This document shows, one piece after another, positions 69 through 8,440 of a stretch of 64,000 bases of DNA (position 1 is its first letter; the number at the start of each line of letters is the position of its first letter). This DNA comes from Bacillota bacterium. Its GTDB lineage: Bacteria > Sysuimicrobiota > Sysuimicrobiia > Sysuimicrobiales > Segetimicrobiaceae. The position numbers and the translations under genes were made by a program. The notes beneath the pieces were generated by a model. The model was not told the DNA's origin. It was given only the letters and a program-made list of their open reading frames with translations, and searched no databases. The DNA is taken from assembly GCA_021324295.1 (NCBI GenBank), contig JAJPJJ010000037.1, positions 1 to 64,000 of the forward strand, written 5' to 3'.

Positions 69-2180
69 TCAAAGAGGGTCAGAAGTGAAGTGCGGCTGTA
101 GTACTAGCGTGGATACCGCGCCCGCGACAGCGATGTGCTGGCGATGCGCGCACGCTACCTTGCGGCTCAGGGACAGGAGCCCGGGCAGCAGGTCCAGGCG
201 GTCCTTCGGCAAGATCGCGTGGGAAACGCGGGCGAGCGGCGTCCAACCAGGCCCGTCGAGTCCGATCGCGACGTCGGCGTGCGCCATGGCGAGCATGTCG
301 CCGGCGCTCGCCCCGATGACGGCCACCACGTGCCCGCGCCGCCGGAGCCGCCGCACAAGCGCCAGCTTCCCGTTCGGCCCCAGGCTCTCCCACGCGCGGC
401 CGACGCCGAGATCGGCGGCGAGCCGGGACGCCGGCACGGCCGGGCCCGCGCCCAGCACGCCGAGCTCCGCGACGCCGGCGGCCCGCAGGCCCTGCACGGC
501 CTCGCGGGCTCCGGGCAGGAGCCGCCCGCGCACGCCAATAACCCCGAGGAGCCGCCGCTTGCGCGCGACAAACAGCACTTCGCTCCCCCGGGCCCCGAGG
601 GCAGCGCCGGAGGCAGCATCGAGAGGGACTCCGTGGCCGGTCATGAATGGGGCCTCGCCCACCAGCAGCTCGGCGCCGTCGACGCGGCCCCGCACGCCGA
701 CGGCCAGGACTTCGTCGACCGCGCTCGCTTCCGGCACATCGAGGCCCATCTCTCGCGCCTTCTCGAGCAGCGGCACGCCGAGCGGATGGGCCGATGCGCG
801 CAGGACCGAGGCGGCGAGGCGCAGCACGGTCTCCGCGCGCACGCCGCCGACGGGGAGGACCGCGTCTACGGCCGGTGATGGAGCGGTGAGGGCGGCCGCG
901 CTGAAGAGCACGACGTCGACGCGCGCCAGCGGGTCCAATGCTCCGCGGTGCAGGACGCGAATCCCCGCCTCCGCCGCGGCTTCGGCAGCGGCCCCCGACG
1001 TCGCCTGCGCGGCGTGCCCCAGCGTAGACGGGTTGGACGCTGCGAGCACGGCGAGCGCCCTGCGCCAGCTCCAGGTGAAGACGAGGGTGCCGCAGGCCAG
1101 CGCGATGCCCGCGGCGCTCATTCGCCGGATGGCCCGCTCCACGTTCCGCGGCAGGGCACGGCCGCGCGCCGGAGGGACCCGGCGCAGCAGCCGGCCCATC
1201 CGCGTCCCCGATCCGGTGGCCACGATCCGGGCCAGCAGCGAGCCCTGCTCCAGGCGTGCCCCGAGGTACACGTGATCCCCCGGTCCCTTGCGCGCCGGCA
1301 CCGCCGATCCACCGACGACCCGCTCGTCCACAAGGGCCGCGCCTTCCTCGATCACGCCGTCGGCGGGCACCGGGTCTCCGGCGCGGAGGCGGACCACCTC
1401 GCCCGGTTGGAGCTCCGAGACGGGAATCGTCGTCTCGCGCCCGTCGCCCAGTTGCAGGCGGGCGCGACCGGCGGGGTGCAGCGTCTGCTCGCTGCACCGC
1501 CGGCCGCGCCAGTGCGCGGACTCCTCGAGCACACCGAGCAGCTGGGATGCGGCGGTCGCCGAGAGGCCCAGCAGCGATTCCCGGACCCCCTTGGTGGCGA
1601 TCGCCGCGTAGTCCTCGACCACGCTCAGCGGAAGCTGGGGACGCACGGGGCCGAAGATGGTCTTCGCCAGCCCGTGCAACTGAGGGTAGCCGGTCAGGGC
1701 CGAGAGAAACACCGAGAGGGCGCCGAGACGCTCGGACCGCGCCCGGGGGTCGTGTCCAAAGAGGGCAACCTTGATCGCCACACCCACCAGGATCCCGGCA
1801 GACACGAGTGGCGTGAGGGACCGGCCGAGGAGGTGCGCGCGCCCCTTGGGGGAACGCGGGATCAGCGGCTCGAGATGCTCCGGCGTGCGCGGCGCGGCAC
1901 GCACCCGCTGGAACGATTCGAGGCTCCCGAGGAGCTCGAGGAGCCGCTGCGGTCCCGTGGCGGCCGGATCGTAGAGGACGAGCACGCGGCCGGTGACGGG
2001 ATTTGCCTCGATCTGCCACACCCCGGGCTGCCGCCGGAAGACGCGCTCGATCCGCCGCGAGAGCGACGGGTTGTCTCGCAGTCCGGTGATCTCGGCGCGG
2101 ATGCGCCCGGGCAGCATCCGGAGCCGCCGAAACCCCGGCGTCCGCGCCGCTGCGTGCATCGTGGACGGTGCCGCGCTCAT
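69..2180 (-). CDS. Catalytically degenerate heavy-metal P-type ATPase-like membrane protein
   Basis: The fold is that of a P1B ATPase. An HMA-like ferredoxin domain (about residues 15-80, no CxxC) is followed by membrane helices, an A domain, a P/N domain and a last hydrophobic segment. Every catalytic signature is changed. The phosphorylation motif DKTGT reads SAAA (Ser near residue 427, codon 900-902), TGES reads VGGS, the CPC motif of the transport helix reads NPS, and GDGxND reads GASAGD. An HP motif (ASAHPLG) survives. By family knowledge it cannot form the aspartyl-phosphate, so it is probably a scaffold, sensor or regulator rather than a pump. The ATG at 2180 was chosen because an AT-rich inverted repeat with a -10-like element lies just upstream; the frame stays open to 2417. 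The last helix is missing in this frame, so the end may be frameshifted. The protein is about 703 residues as read. Confidence 0.75.
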   Translation of the reverse strand: MSAAPSTMHAAARTPGFRRLRMLPGRIRAEITGLRDNPSLSRRIERVFRRQPGVWQIEANPVTGRVLVLYDPAATGPQRLLELLGSLESFQRVRAAPRTPEHLEPLIPRSPKGRAHLLGRSLTPLVSAGILVGVAIKVALFGHDPRARSERLGALSVFLSALTGYPQLHGLAKTIFGPVRPQLPLSVVEDYAAIATKGVRESLLGLSATAASQLLGVLEESAHWRGRRCSEQTLHPAGRARLQLGDGRETTIPVSELQPGEVVRLRAGDPVPADGVIEEGAALVDERVVGGSAVPARKGPGDHVYLGARLEQGSLLARIVATGSGTRMGRLLRRVPPARGRALPRNVERAIRRMSAAGIALACGTLVFTWSWRRALAVLAASNPSTLGHAAQATSGAAAEAAAEAGIRVLHRGALDPLARVDVVLFSAAALTAPSPAVDAVLPVGGVRAETVLRLAASVLRASAHPLGVPLLEKAREMGLDVPEASAVDEVLAVGVRGRVDGAELLVGEAPFMTGHGVPLDAASGAALGARGSEVLFVARKRRLLGVIGVRGRLLPGAREAVQGLRAAGVAELGVLGAGPAVPASRLAADLGVGRAWESLGPNGKLALVRRLRRRGHVVAVIGASAGDMLAMAHADVAIGLDGPGWTPLARVSHAILPKDRLDLLPGLLSLSRKVACAHRQHIAVAGAVSTLVLQPHFTSDPL

Positions 2181-3238: not shown

Positions 3239-4525
3239 ATGTCTGTCCCCGCCGCGATCGCCCACGTGGCTGGTCGCCTCGCTCGCGTCGTCACCGCACC
3301 GCTGGACGCGCTGAGCCCCCCGGTGCGCCGGATCGTCCAGATCGAGATCGCCGTGGCGGTGACGCTGTCGGCGTTCAATAGCCTGGCGCCGCCGTTCACG
3401 GGGCTGGTCCTGCGGCGGGACCTCCATGCCACGCCGCTCCAGTTAGCGCTCACGTCGTCGGCAGGCGCCGCCCTCATGCTGCCGTCGATGTGGTGCACGC
3501 GGCGCATCCACGGGCGATCTCCCCTTGCCTTCGTCGTCTGGCCCGGCTTCGTGGCGAGAGGCTTGTTCGTGCTGGCGCCGTTCATCCACTCCGCGTGGCC
3601 GCTCGTCGGGATTCTGGTGGCGGGCAGCCTGGCAAGTGCCATCGCGCAGCCCGCCTACACCGCAGTCGCCGAGGCCGTGTACCCGCGCGAGGAGCGAGGT
3701 CGCGCCCTCGGCATCATCCGCATGATGGGTTCGATGCTGCCGATCGGCCTGGCCCCGGTCGCCGGACACCTGGTCGACTCCCTGGGCTATCGAATCGTGT
3801 TTCCCATCGCCGCCGTGCTCGGCATGGGCGCTTCCCTGTGCCAGAGGCGGATCGGGCCGACGCCTCCGGCGGATCTGGGGCGCGTCGACCCGAGCGCGCT
3901 GCGCATGCTGCCGTCGCTGCTCCGCGAGGACCCCGCGTTTCGCACGCTGCTCGTGGCGTCGTCCCTCTTCGGGCTCGGCGTCTGGCTTCAGCAGCCGGTC
4001 AACCCGCTGATGTGGGTCGACGTCCTGCACGCGAGCGCGATCCAGGTCGGCGTCGCCGGGGCGGCCGCGAGCGTCGCAGGGCTCTTCGTGAGCGTCTACT
4101 GGGGGCGCGTCTTGGACCGGCAGTCGAGCCTGCGCACAGTGCGGACCGTGTACGCGCTCGGGATGCTGACTCCGCTCACCTACCTGGCCGCGTTCGTGGT
4201 CCGGACCCCGTGGGCCCTGGTCCTCAGCCAGGCAAACGATGCGGTGGCGCTCACCGGCGTCGACATGGTCGTGATCATGGCCATGATGGACCTCGGCCGC
4301 GGGCGGGGGGCGACGTATCAGGCGGTCTACCTCACCGTGGCGGGCGTCCGCGGCATCGTCGCGCCCCTGTGCGCCGCGGTCGCGGCCCAGTCCCTCGGCA
4401 TCGCGCCGGTGTACGCGGTTACGGCCGCCCTGATGCTGGCCGCCGTCTGGGTCGCCGCGCGCCTGACCGCCGAGCCGCGGGTCCGCGAGCGCTTCCAGGT
4501 TTGGGGCCGCGCGGGCGGTGGGTAG
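3239..4525 (+). CDS. Major facilitator superfamily transporter
   Basis: A 428-residue integral membrane protein with about twelve hydrophobic helices and a longer polar stretch in the middle (about residues 200-235), the usual MFS 6+6 arrangement. The first half carries a loop, YPREERGRALGIIRMM, like the conserved MFS segment between helices 4 and 5, where a basic cluster precedes a Gly-rich helix. It probably moves a small solute or drug by proton coupling at the cytoplasmic membrane; the substrate cannot be read from sequence. The start lacks a clear ribosome binding site, but the first helix begins near residue 30, which fits this start. The next gene begins 38 bp downstream and has its own strong ribosome binding site. 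Confidence 0.85.
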   Translation: MSVPAAIAHVAGRLARVVTAPLDALSPPVRRIVQIEIAVAVTLSAFNSLAPPFTGLVLRRDLHATPLQLALTSSAGAALMLPSMWCTRRIHGRSPLAFVVWPGFVARGLFVLAPFIHSAWPLVGILVAGSLASAIAQPAYTAVAEAVYPREERGRALGIIRMMGSMLPIGLAPVAGHLVDSLGYRIVFPIAAVLGMGASLCQRRIGPTPPADLGRVDPSALRMLPSLLREDPAFRTLLVASSLFGLGVWLQQPVNPLMWVDVLHASAIQVGVAGAAASVAGLFVSVYWGRVLDRQSSLRTVRTVYALGMLTPLTYLAAFVVRTPWALVLSQANDAVALTGVDMVVIMAMMDLGRGRGATYQAVYLTVAGVRGIVAPLCAAVAAQSLGIAPVYAVTAALMLAAVWVAARLTAEPRVRERFQVWGRAGGG

Positions 4526-4563
4526 ATTCTCAGTGCACACACCCGCACGGGGAGGATCTTCCC

Positions 4564-5061
4564 ATGGCAGAGAACGCGGCCGAGCGGCTCGGCCGGTACC
4601 TGGACGACGCGTGGGCAGTCGAGAAGACGCTCGTTGGCATGCTCGGGGACATGGCGCACGAAAGCCAGGACCCCAGCATCCGGTCGCTCTTCGAACAGCA
4701 TCAGCGCGAGACCCAGCAGCAGTGCGAAAGCCTCGAGGCCCGCATCCGGACGATGGGCCGGCAGCCTTCGACGGCCAAGGGGTTCCTCAACCAGATCATG
4801 GGCAAGATGGGAGACGCATTCCGCAGCGCCCACGACGAGTACGATAAGCAAACCGAGAACCTCATGAAGGGCTACGCGACCGAGCACTTCGAGATGGCGA
4901 TGTACACCGCGCTGGGGTCGTACGCGAGCGCGATGGGGGATCAGGAGACCGCGCAGCTCGCGCAGAGGTTGTACGAGCAGGAGCGGGAGGCGGCGCAGAA
5001 GATCTGGCCGCTCATCGGGCCGGCGGCCGGCGCGGCCGCGCACGCGGCCGCACCGCGGTGA
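4564..5061 (+). CDS. DUF892 (YciF-like) ferritin-superfamily protein
   Basis: A 165-residue, mostly helical protein. Its N-terminus, AAERLGRYLDDAWAVEKTLVGML, matches the opening of DUF892 proteins, in which Glu and His residues of a four-helix bundle can form a di-iron or other metal site. Candidate ligands are E in AVEKT, H in MAHES, E in FEQHQRE, and the helix containing TEHFEMAMY. Family members are stress-induced and often occur in compartment or oxidative-stress contexts; the biochemical role is unsettled. GGAGG at 4551-4555 lies 8 nt before the ATG. A GC-rich terminator-like hairpin follows at 5148-5178. Confidence 0.85.
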   Translation: MAENAAERLGRYLDDAWAVEKTLVGMLGDMAHESQDPSIRSLFEQHQRETQQQCESLEARIRTMGRQPSTAKGFLNQIMGKMGDAFRSAHDEYDKQTENLMKGYATEHFEMAMYTALGSYASAMGDQETAQLAQRLYEQEREAAQKIWPLIGPAAGAAAHAAAPR

Positions 5062-5837: not shown

Positions 5838-6002
5838 CGCGCCCCTCCTCGCCCTCCCGCGCCGCCGCCCGTGCGACGCGCCGGCGGGCGTGCCCGTGCT
5901 CGTTACTTGTTTTCTCCCGCGGCCGCTTGCCGCCAAACCGGCCGCCGTTTGGACGCGGCGGGAGCGGGACACAATGCCCTACGGAGGCGACAACTCCGAC
6001 CG

Positions 6003-6782
6003 ATGCGTATGGATCCCGGCTGGGTCCGGCGCGCCGGCGTGGTGTGCCGGCGCTATGCGTCCGCGCCGCTCCTGGCGGTTGCCGGGCTGGGGCTGTCCGG
6101 GTGCGCGTCCCCTCTTCCCGGCGCGGCCACGGTCCAGGGACAGCGGATCGCCCACCTCTGGGCCGTCTTCTTCCTCTCTGCTGCGGGGGTCGCCGGCGCC
6201 GTCTACGGCCTGATCCTCTGGTGCATCGTCCGGTACCGCAGGCGCAGCGACGGGCTGCCTCCGCAGTACCGGGACAATATCCCGGTCGAGATCATGTACA
6301 CGGCCGTCCCGGTGGGCATCGTCGCCTTCCTGTTTGCCCTCACCTACGGCACCGAGATACACGTCGATCGCGTGGCGCCGCGGCCGGATGTCACCATCAA
6401 CGTCACCGCGTTCAAGTGGTCGTGGCTATTCGACTACCCGGGCACCGGCATCACCGTCGCCGGGACGCCCGACTATCCGCCGATCGCGATGGTGCCGGTC
6501 GGGCGGACGGTGCGGATCGTACTCACCTCCACGGACGTCGTGCACGCGTTCTACATCCCGAGCTTCCTGTACAAGCGCGATGCGACGCCGGGTCTCGTCC
6601 AGCGGTTCGATCTGGAGATCCGGCGCCCGGGCGAGTACCTGGGCGAGTGCGTCGAGTTCTGTGGCTTCGACCACACGCGCATGCGGTTCTGGCTGAGAGC
6701 CGTGCCGCCCGCGCAATTCGACCGCTGGATCGAGCAGGGCCCGCGCGTCGTCCACCAGCGCGTGCGGTACACCGCGCCGTGA
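6003..6782 (+). CDS. ctaC: Cytochrome c oxidase subunit II (first oxidase)
   Basis: A 259-residue lipoprotein-like subunit. It has a hydrophobic leader with lipobox LSGC (Cys34), two membrane helices (about 48-75 and 98-115), then the cupredoxin domain that carries the binuclear CuA centre. All CuA ligands are present: His181 (DVVHAFYIP), Cys216 and Cys220 (CVEFCG), His224 and Met227. It accepts electrons from cytochrome c, or directly from the QcrC haems in a supercomplex, and passes them to CtaD. There is no fused cytochrome c domain. The start is ATG 6003, with GGAGG 15 nt upstream; ATG 6009 is an alternative. Its stop overlaps the GTG start of ctaD. Confidence 0.93.
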   Translation: MRMDPGWVRRAGVVCRRYASAPLLAVAGLGLSGCASPLPGAATVQGQRIAHLWAVFFLSAAGVAGAVYGLILWCIVRYRRRSDGLPPQYRDNIPVEIMYTAVPVGIVAFLFALTYGTEIHVDRVAPRPDVTINVTAFKWSWLFDYPGTGITVAGTPDYPPIAMVPVGRTVRIVLTSTDVVHAFYIPSFLYKRDATPGLVQRFDLEIRRPGEYLGECVEFCGFDHTRMRFWLRAVPPAQFDRWIEQGPRVVHQRVRYTAP

Positions 6783-8440
6783 CCGCCGTCGTCGCCCCCG
6801 CCGCCGCAGAACCCCGGCGCCCGGCGCGCCGGGCCGGGGTCCTGGACTGGCTTGTGACCACCGACCACAAGCACATCGGCATCCTGTACATGGCCACCAC
6901 GCTGGGGTTCTTCCTCGTGGCCGGCGCGATCGCGCTCGTGATGCGCGCGCAGCTCGCCCAGCCCGGCCTCCACATCGTCGAGCGCCAGGCCTACAACCAG
7001 CTCTTCACCCTGCACGGAACGGCCATGATCTTCCTCGTCATCGCCCCGTTCGCGCTCGGCCTGGCGAACTACCTCCTGCCTCTCCACATCGGGGCCGCGG
7101 ACCTGGCGTTCCCCCGGATGAACGCGCTCACCTACTGGCTGCTGCTGGCCGGCGGGCTGACGATCTTCAGCGGGCTCCTCCTCAGCACCGGCGCCGCCGC
7201 CGCGGGGTGGACGATGTACGCCCCGCTGTCCGACTTCGAGAACACGCCGGGCCCCGGCGTCGACCTCTGGATCATGGGCGTGCTGATGATCAGCGCCTCG
7301 TCGATCATGACGGCGATCAACTTCCTCACGACCGTGATGCTGTTCCGCGCCCCCGGCATGACGATGATGCGGTTGCCCGTGTTCGTGTGGAACATCATCG
7401 TCACGTCCCTCATCATCCTCATGGCCTTCCCGCCCCTCGCGGTCGCGATGGCCGAGCTGTTCATCGACCGGCGCCTGGGCGGCCACTTCTTCGATGCCTC
7501 GCACGGGGGCAGCGCGATCCTGTACCAGCATGTCTTCTGGTTCTTCGGCCACCCCGAGGTGTACGTGATGATCCTGCCGTACTTCGGCGTGGTGACCCAG
7601 GTCGTCTCGACGTTCTCGCGCCGGCCAGTGTTCGGCTACCTCGGGATGGTGCTCGCCTCGTTCGCGATCGCGGGCCTCTCGATGGGCGTGTGGGCGCATC
7701 ACATGTTCACGACCGGGGCGGTCAACAACCCGTTCTTCTCGATCATGTCGTTCCTGATCGCGGTGCCGACCGGCATCAAGTACTTCAACTGGATCGGCAC
7801 GATGTGGCAGGGCGCGCTGGTGTTCCCGACCGCGATGCTGTTCGCCATCGGCTTCATGCTGAACTTCCTGCTCGGCGGGGTCACCGGGGTGATGGTCGCC
7901 TCCCCGCCGCTCGACTACCATGTGGAGGACACCTACTTCCTCGTCACCCACTTCCACTACACGCTCGCGGGGGGCAGCATGTTCGCCCTCCTGGCCGCGC
8001 TGTACTTCTGGTTCCCCAAGATCACCGGGCGTCTGCTGAGCGAGCGCCTGGGCATGCTCTCGTTCTGGCTCACATTTGTGGGATACAACATCACGTTCAT
8101 CCCGCTGTTCCTCGTGGGCCTCCTCGGGATGCCCCGCCGCGTCGTCACGTACCTGCCGCTGCCGGGGTGGCCGGAGCTCAACCTCACATCCACGGCCGGC
8201 GCCGGCGTGCTGGCCCTGGGCATCGCCCTCACGATGTGGAACCTCGTGGTCTCGTGGTCACGCGGGGCGCCGGCCGGGGACGACCCCTGGGGCGGCGGCA
8301 CGCTGGAGTGGGCCACGTCGTCCCCGCCGCCGGAGCGCAACTTCCACGCCCTCCCGCCGATCCGGTCGGATCGACCGGCCTTCGACATGCGGATGCCTCA
8401 GGGGACGCCGGGCGGCCAGGCGCGCGCCCGCGCCGGGTGA
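6779..8440 (+). CDS. ctaD: Cytochrome c oxidase subunit I (first oxidase)
   Basis: The catalytic subunit, 553 residues with about twelve helices. Haem ligands are His79 (LHGT), His391 and His393 (THFHY). CuB ligands are His258 with the His-Tyr pair of GHPEVY (Tyr262) and His307-His308 (WAHHMF). Glu260 in GHPEVY marks the A1 type of haem-copper oxidase, and Lys334 (TGIKYFNW) is the K-channel lysine. It reduces oxygen to water while pumping protons across the cytoplasmic membrane. GTG 6779 overlaps the ctaC stop by four bases, so the two are translationally coupled. The C-terminal tail (GGTLEWATSSPPPERNF) is typical of actinobacterial-type subunits. Confidence 0.95.
   Translation: MTAVVAPAAAEPRRPARRAGVLDWLVTTDHKHIGILYMATTLGFFLVAGAIALVMRAQLAQPGLHIVERQAYNQLFTLHGTAMIFLVIAPFALGLANYLLPLHIGAADLAFPRMNALTYWLLLAGGLTIFSGLLLSTGAAAAGWTMYAPLSDFENTPGPGVDLWIMGVLMISASSIMTAINFLTTVMLFRAPGMTMMRLPVFVWNIIVTSLIILMAFPPLAVAMAELFIDRRLGGHFFDASHGGSAILYQHVFWFFGHPEVYVMILPYFGVVTQVVSTFSRRPVFGYLGMVLASFAIAGLSMGVWAHHMFTTGAVNNPFFSIMSFLIAVPTGIKYFNWIGTMWQGALVFPTAMLFAIGFMLNFLLGGVTGVMVASPPLDYHVEDTYFLVTHFHYTLAGGSMFALLAALYFWFPKITGRLLSERLGMLSFWLTFVGYNITFIPLFLVGLLGMPRRVVTYLPLPGWPELNLTSTAGAGVLALGIALTMWNLVVSWSRGAPAGDDPWGGGTLEWATSSPPPERNFHALPPIRSDRPAFDMRMPQGTPGGQARARAG

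Follow-up and report, generated by a model that had tools for sequence, protein, structure and literature searches.

The window analysed here, a stretch of 64,000 nucleotides from a Bacillota bacterium, forms the first part of contig C6 (76,250 bp), beginning with its base 1, in a fragmented draft genome of 129 contigs. At this edge lies a minus-strand frame, 69-2180, of 703 amino acids counted from an ATG at 2180 (a longer start is possible at 2417), which resembles the P1B-type heavy-metal ATPases, and the gene to which it belongs runs to the contig edge. Judging from its anatomy and from the insertion that ends it, this frame is very probably the N-terminal half of a double P-type ATPase that was split by a mobile element, with the other half on a second contig, C120. 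The features of the gene are the following:

1-103, no strand: end of a repeated insertion element, matching the ends of contigs C85 and C128
91-103, minus: terminal inverted repeat TACTACAGCCGCA, repeated in inverted form at the C120 end, ahead of the gene's continuation
104-107, no strand: 4-bp target-site copy CTAG, found at the C6 flank and again at the C120 end
69-107, minus: false 3' end of the frame, made of the target copy, element-encoded codons LVLQPHFTSDPL and the stop
108-2180, minus: pseudo-P1B portion of 691 codons, very probably the N-terminal half of a tandem double P-type ATPase, colinear with the doubles of genomes G004 (51% identity) and G008 (48%)
1941-2117, minus: HMA_2-like domain without CxxC (PF19991)
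969-1448, minus: E1-E2 ATPase (actuator) region (PF00122, residues 245-404)
1305-1316, minus: VGGS in place of TGES, from alignments
1026-1034, minus: transport-helix CPC changed to NPS (orthologues: NPN, NPM), from alignments
891-902, minus: SAAA in place of DKTGT (GKTGT in both orthologues), from alignments
297-314, minus: GASAGD in place of GDGxND (identical in 3/3 orthologues), from alignments
L012:5437-8250 on contig C120, minus: rear half, a P2-type ATPase, from sequence motifs

What kind of protein does the frame encode? The initial annotation had recognized the fold and order of a P1B ATPase, and this reading is borne out by matches to the Pfam families E1-E2_ATPase (E 1.1e-27) and Hydrolase (E 5.4e-12) and to the NCBIfam model TIGR01525 (E 1.8e-56 over residues 233-694, with a score of 192 that lies below the model cut-off of 346). 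The domain order shared with pumps such as CopA and ZntA, and detectable homology to them, span residues 218-694, and an alignment with an ordinary P1B pump, L011, gives 29% identity. Unlike CopA and ZntA, however, this half lacks the phosphorylation aspartate, TGE, CPC, GDGxND and the CxxC of the HMA domain. The substitutions had been named correctly, with VGGS at residues 289-292, NPS at 383-385, SAAA at 427-430 and GASAGD at 623-628, and to them we add the TGD motif, which has become GAGP. Likewise confirmed is the HMA-like domain without CxxC (residues 22-80), which scores 28.5 bits on the protein and 31 bits in the genome search, on either side of the cut-off of 30. Retained is the HP dipeptide of the N-domain (residues 465-466, within SAHP at 463-466), which is present in 3/3 orthologues. 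In five of the five other P-type ATPases read from the same genome (L002-L006), TGE, DKTGT and GDGxND are intact.

The C-terminal end of the frame does not belong to the ATPase. Its last 12 codons and stop (bases 69-107) consist of a target-site copy and mobile-element DNA, the orthologues diverge from it at precisely this point, and by alignment the frame stops within the fifth membrane helix of the dead half. Read in the direction of the gene, C6 runs ...GTATCCACG-CTAG-TACTACAGCCGCA-CTTCAC..., and the C120 end runs ...TGCGGCTGTAGTA-CTAG-GCGGGGCCGCG..., with the inverted 13-bp terminus directly ahead of the P2-type half. Bases 1-107 recur at the ends of C85 (100%) and C128 (99%), whereas C119 and the two ends of C120 carry the opposite end of the element (100% over 97-100 bp), of which C72 has 42 bp. 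Altogether, element ends occur at seven contig ends, with matches of 97-107 bp at 99-100% identity except on C72, and with CTAG, CTAA or TTAG as targets, CTAG being the one on both ATPase flanks; the copy at the start of C120 carries one extra base in its terminus. Both the inverted termini and the 4-bp YTAR copies of the target are as in IS5-type elements, for which YTAR is typical; the interior of the element is not assembled. Its 100-bp end has no match among plasmid records. Since the copies are nearly identical, recent movement of the element is suggested. The copies at the ends of C85, C119, C120 (start), C128 and C72 amount to at least three near-identical ones with YTAR targets. As a separate observation, a second P-type ATPase of this genome, on C72 (L008, G000:C72:1-2931, approximately 165-1350), looks frameshifted, with its DKTGT and TGDN parts in different frames of the same strand; the contig carries the same element at its other end.

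The element is a repeat, which is why the assembly would have broken at the insertion and put the front half on C6 and the rear one on C120. Could the break be an effect of the assembly, with the repeat lying elsewhere and an intact gene in the organism or in some members of its population? The draft is fragmented and its contigs end where the repeat starts, which speaks for such an explanation; however, both flanks carry correctly oriented element termini and the same CTAG, as a real insertion gives, and an uninterrupted copy of the double was not found in the genome, which leaves an assembly effect quite improbable.

On C120, the frame is open for 972 amino acids, 938 codons of them from the junction, and encodes a complete P2-type ATPase. 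It has TGE, DKTGT, TGD and GDGVND, with PEGM in transmembrane helix 4, NLGE in helix 5 and NLFTD in helix 6, so that the whole P2A set, namely TGE, DKTGT, GDGxND, PEG(L/M), NxxE and NxxTD, is present. These membrane residues are presumably of the Ca2+/Mn2+ type, and the best NCBIfam model is that of the PMR1-type Ca2+ pumps (TIGR01522, E 3.8e-156), at 521 bits below its cut-off of 798. Joining C6 and C120 with a single CTAG yields one frame of 1629 residues, in which the HMA_2-like domain is followed by the dead P1B-type ATPase and then by the complete P2-type ATPase. Among 12 pairings of right and left flanks, targets match in five, and only C6 with the C120 end lets an ATPase run into an ATPase (838+938 codons). 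The loss of every catalytic motif, as originally claimed, holds for the stretch 69-2180; it does not hold for the protein, whose continuation on C120 has them all.

The same architecture is found unbroken elsewhere. A search with the N-terminal half over 61 genomes (own, same family, same order and others; E up to 1e-60) retrieved it in three, namely its own, G004 (51% identity) and G008 (48%), and in the latter two a P2-type ATPase follows it in the same frame as a fusion. The joined frame is colinear with both: G008 has a 1603-residue frame without a stop, and G004 a 1180-residue frame reaching a contig edge (on C38), with a second partial copy on C17, truncated on the other side and 90% identical to the first over 471 rear-half residues. 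A profile of the doubles, run over 367 genomes, added one further double, G019 (1404 residues, truncated by the start of its contig); in this and the later search over 386 genomes, the two best candidates per genome were scored, and others may be missed. Among plasmid records, Thermomicrobium roseum WP_012643013.1, entered as a 'HAD-IC family P-type ATPase', is an uninterrupted double of 1607 residues, whose N-terminal half matched only itself in a search of plasmids. It is like the window's gene in architecture, in the clade of its catalytic half and in having small genes upstream, and differs in having two HMA-like domains (by eye) and a more degenerate N-terminal half, with HMA_2 at 20.9 bits and without an E1-E2 or Hydrolase match. 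Transmembrane helix 4 of the rear half reads PEGM here and PEGL in G004, G008, T. roseum and G019.

In a maximum-likelihood tree of 32 rear halves and single P2 pumps, the rear halves of the six doubles fall on one side of a branch with support of 100/99, recovered in 100% of 200 bootstrap trees. The remaining 26 sequences came from the doubles profile or lie near plasmid hits; the P2 genes of four loci in the same range (L050, L054, L056, L058) were filtered out and are absent from the tree. On this sampling, the catalytic halves of the six doubles are one clade by sequence. Separately, plasmid pMNOD01 of M. nodulans (L037, 2608-7952) carries a P1B and a P2 gene head to tail, 131 bp apart, which is the arrangement from which a fusion would start. 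As an unfused ancestor this pair is not shown; its P2 gene lies outside the clade of the doubles.

These fusions also bear on the idea, put forward in the initial annotation, that a complete 703-residue protein serves as a free-standing metal sensor or membrane scaffold. A long open frame, sequence constraint and an adjoining partner gene would all suit such a protein. However, its C terminus is encoded by element DNA, which recurs at other contig ends, the frame stops inside a membrane helix, and both orthologues run in frame into a P2 ATPase. The contig-end evidence and the orthologue fusions lead us to reject it as very improbable, and with it the assumption that 69-2180 is a whole gene.

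Has the dead half, as part of a double, been retained or is it decaying? The annotation had favoured a retained pseudoenzyme, and this part of it is supported by sequence comparison. Between G004 and G008, the N-terminal half is as conserved as the rear half (55.4% of 681 columns versus 54.5% of 468), so that in these two orthologues it evolves at the pace of the catalytic half. For the three pairs of N-terminal halves, NG86 ratios of nonsynonymous to synonymous substitution rates (dN/dS) are approximately 0.27-0.48, at a dS of 1.0-1.5; as dS is near saturation (approximately 0.9-1.5 in all pairs but one), we rely on codon positions and on the comparison of the two halves instead. Private changes at third positions exceed those at first and second positions by 2.30 (own), 3.52 (G004) and 2.64 (G008) times in the N-terminal half, and by 2.34, 2.93 and 2.12 times in the rear half, and in all three lineages third positions change faster in the N-terminal half (p 0.012-0.031). 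Kept in own, G004 and G008 alike are GASAGD, the HP dipeptide and a TGRVL stretch of the HMA-like domain. Neither orthologue has DKTGT with GDGxND, the combination that would have spoken for a decaying pseudogene; both have GKTGT with GASAGD. The anticipated orthologues with the same substituted motifs thus exist for GASAGD, whereas SAAA and VGGS are private to the window's own genome.

The constraint is not complete, and a functionless half hitch-hiking on a live pump in slow decay deserves consideration. Motifs have been lost differently in each lineage (GKTGT, SAAA, LDHP): the aspartate is replaced within SAAA here and lost within GKTGT in G004 and G008, while in the type seen in T. roseum and G019, whose N-terminal halves are more degenerate and only 23-24% identical to the window's, its position may survive in LDHP and KTGT is gone. 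Moreover, the own N-terminal half is 51.0 and 47.5% like its relatives, compared with 57.7-62.7% for the own rear half, and second positions change faster in the N-terminal half of the own lineage alone (101/501 versus 45/338, Fisher p 0.012, one of nine uncorrected comparisons; p 0.66 in G004 and 0.85 in G008). The private motifs and the faster second positions make it possible that some relaxation of the own N-terminal half preceded the insertion. Such a neutral appendage is nonetheless unlikely in view of the equal conservation of the two halves in G004 and G008, the full length kept despite lost catalytic motifs in all five doubles in which the N-terminal half was read (own, G004, G008, T. 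roseum and G019), and the colinearity of the two types of N-terminal half in a profile comparison (Prob 98.4, E 9.4e-15, 574 columns).

Upstream of the double, two further features lie in the window:

2198-2214, no strand: AT-rich palindrome ATACATAGTATATGTAT in a GC-rich intergenic stretch between divergent genes, operator-like, not conserved
2411-2896, plus: divergent small gene, 161 amino acids, weakly DUF5132-like (E 0.00098, 19.6 bits), with a PacL-like layout

The palindrome is what remains of the regulatory-looking promoter noted earlier, as the intergenic stretch gave no sigma-70 match and the matching stretches of four relatives' loci hold no counterpart. The small gene has more company, in that a small gene or gene pair adjoins five of the five doubles with readable flanks. 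Its N-terminal part is hydrophobic, and it also has an acidic stretch (REEWDDFVAE in the window's protein); in T. roseum and G019, two small genes divide these features, with REEVEDIVAEARALR in the second gene of G019. This combination, with an acidic stretch rich in E and A, in a small protein encoded beside a P-type ATPase recalls PacL1, which according to passages of one study stabilizes the zinc pump CtpC, DUF6110 proteins being typically encoded with P1B6 pumps (PMC9374683). Two differences stand out, since the partner here is weakly DUF5132-like, below cut-offs and without the conserved C-terminal metal-binding motif (an HH..EH end occurs in the window's protein only, not in G004 or G008), and since the pump here is a double with a dead P1B half. 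By its sequence layout, the partner resembles the PacL and DUF1490/DUF6110 proteins and is not a member of them. Farther along the plus strand of the window are an MFS transporter (3239-4525) with a DUF892 ferritin-like protein downstream of it (4540-5058, E 1e-26), and cytochrome c oxidase subunit II (5979-6782, COX2 E 5.6e-17) followed by a subunit I-like frame (approximately 6800-8440, by eye).

How might such a double work? In the unbroken gene of the relatives, ATP hydrolysis and ion movement would be carried out by the rear half alone, and the ion would probably be Ca2+ or Mn2+, going by the membrane residues and the PMR1-type model that matched below its cut-off. The dead half, in which phosphorylation would be impossible and the CPC metal site is lost, could act as a covalently attached regulatory or docking module, or as a gate of the motor. 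For docking, the small membrane-associated partner encoded next door would probably bind the dead half, much as PacL proteins dock to and stabilize P1B pumps, for which there is a precedent (PMC9374683, PMC13043812). For the relatives, a live rear half with a regulatory or docking dead half seems to us quite possible, a little short of an even chance. In the present strain, the element would have inserted where the fifth membrane helix of the dead half is encoded, duplicating CTAG, removing part of helix 5 and helix 6 and disconnecting the motor. The gene, split in the assembled strain, is thus probably broken and may well be dead, and the pump probably inactivated, unless start codons within the element allow the rear half to be made and the halves work as two polypeptides. 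The C120 frame is indeed open into the element and has ATG codons upstream of the junction; however, the front half would have to do without part of helix 5 and helix 6, and expression would depend on a putative promoter inside the element, so that separate polypeptides appear rather improbable.

Doubles of this kind have been described before. Passages of one paper describe FUPA24 (TC 3.A.3.24), with CtpH and CtpI of M. tuberculosis, as having twice the usual length and functional motifs in the C-terminal part, and give PEGM for helix 4 of CtpH (PMC3573892); the relevant part of a 2023 review treats CtpI and CtpH as P-type ATPases with an isolated position in the tree and an uncharacterised function (PMC10654040). 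The present doubles fit this family by architecture, in their length (1629 residues joined; 1603 in G008 and 1607 in T. roseum, uninterrupted), in motifs confined to the C-terminal half, in the P2 or alkaline-earth type of that half and in the PEGM seen here as in CtpH. They differ in that the N-terminal segment is here recognizably a dead P1B ATPase with an HMA_2-like domain. The mycobacterial CtpH and CtpI were not reached by the profile searches over 367 and 386 genomes, the profile A2 matching 1/386, nor by a search for DUF1490 over 386 genomes, which gave none above the cut-off, and a contig scan for them found a single ordinary P1B pump.

Several points weigh against the reading of a split double with a docking module. 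The join of C6 and C120 rests on homology and target sites, as no read spans the junction, and its openness is weak evidence, since random flank joins in this GC-rich genome often stay open for hundreds of codons; it is therefore homology that decides the pairing. The distribution is patchy, with the junction region in only 3/12 genomes of the family, and the likeness to CtpH and CtpI is one of description. The partners lie below every Pfam cut-off (DUF5132 15.1-19.6 bits at 4/5 loci, against a cut-off of 25; DUF6110 12.5 bits at one locus), and their two types match each other weakly (hhalign Prob 48% and 60%). Finally, the one AlphaFold model, from a two-row alignment, had a mean predicted local distance difference test score of 40 and a predicted template modelling score of 0.26, too low to lend structural support.

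What does the gene tell us about the family? At the level of this genome, it illustrates that an insertion element at a contig edge can mimic a stand-alone pseudoenzyme. At the level of the doubles, the architecture was already known, and the point that may be new is the dead-P1B nature of the N-terminal half; a literature search, with subscription journals outside it, gave no statement to this effect, which may nevertheless be in print. What had been a vague 'large N-terminal segment' becomes, as a conserved dead P1B half adjoined by a partner gene, a module open to testing. More tentatively, and as rather less likely than not, the FUPA24-type doubles may be hetero-tandem pumps that go back to a single capture of an entire heavy-metal P1B ATPase; the captured unit would have lost both catalysis and its metal site and turned into a fixed regulatory subunit, holding a live Ca2+/Mn2+-type pump on a PacL-like membrane scaffold. 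If this is true, a P-type ATPase would be under the control of a dead one within its own chain, and if CtpH and CtpI share the dead P1B half, their unexplained N-terminal segments would be accounted for.
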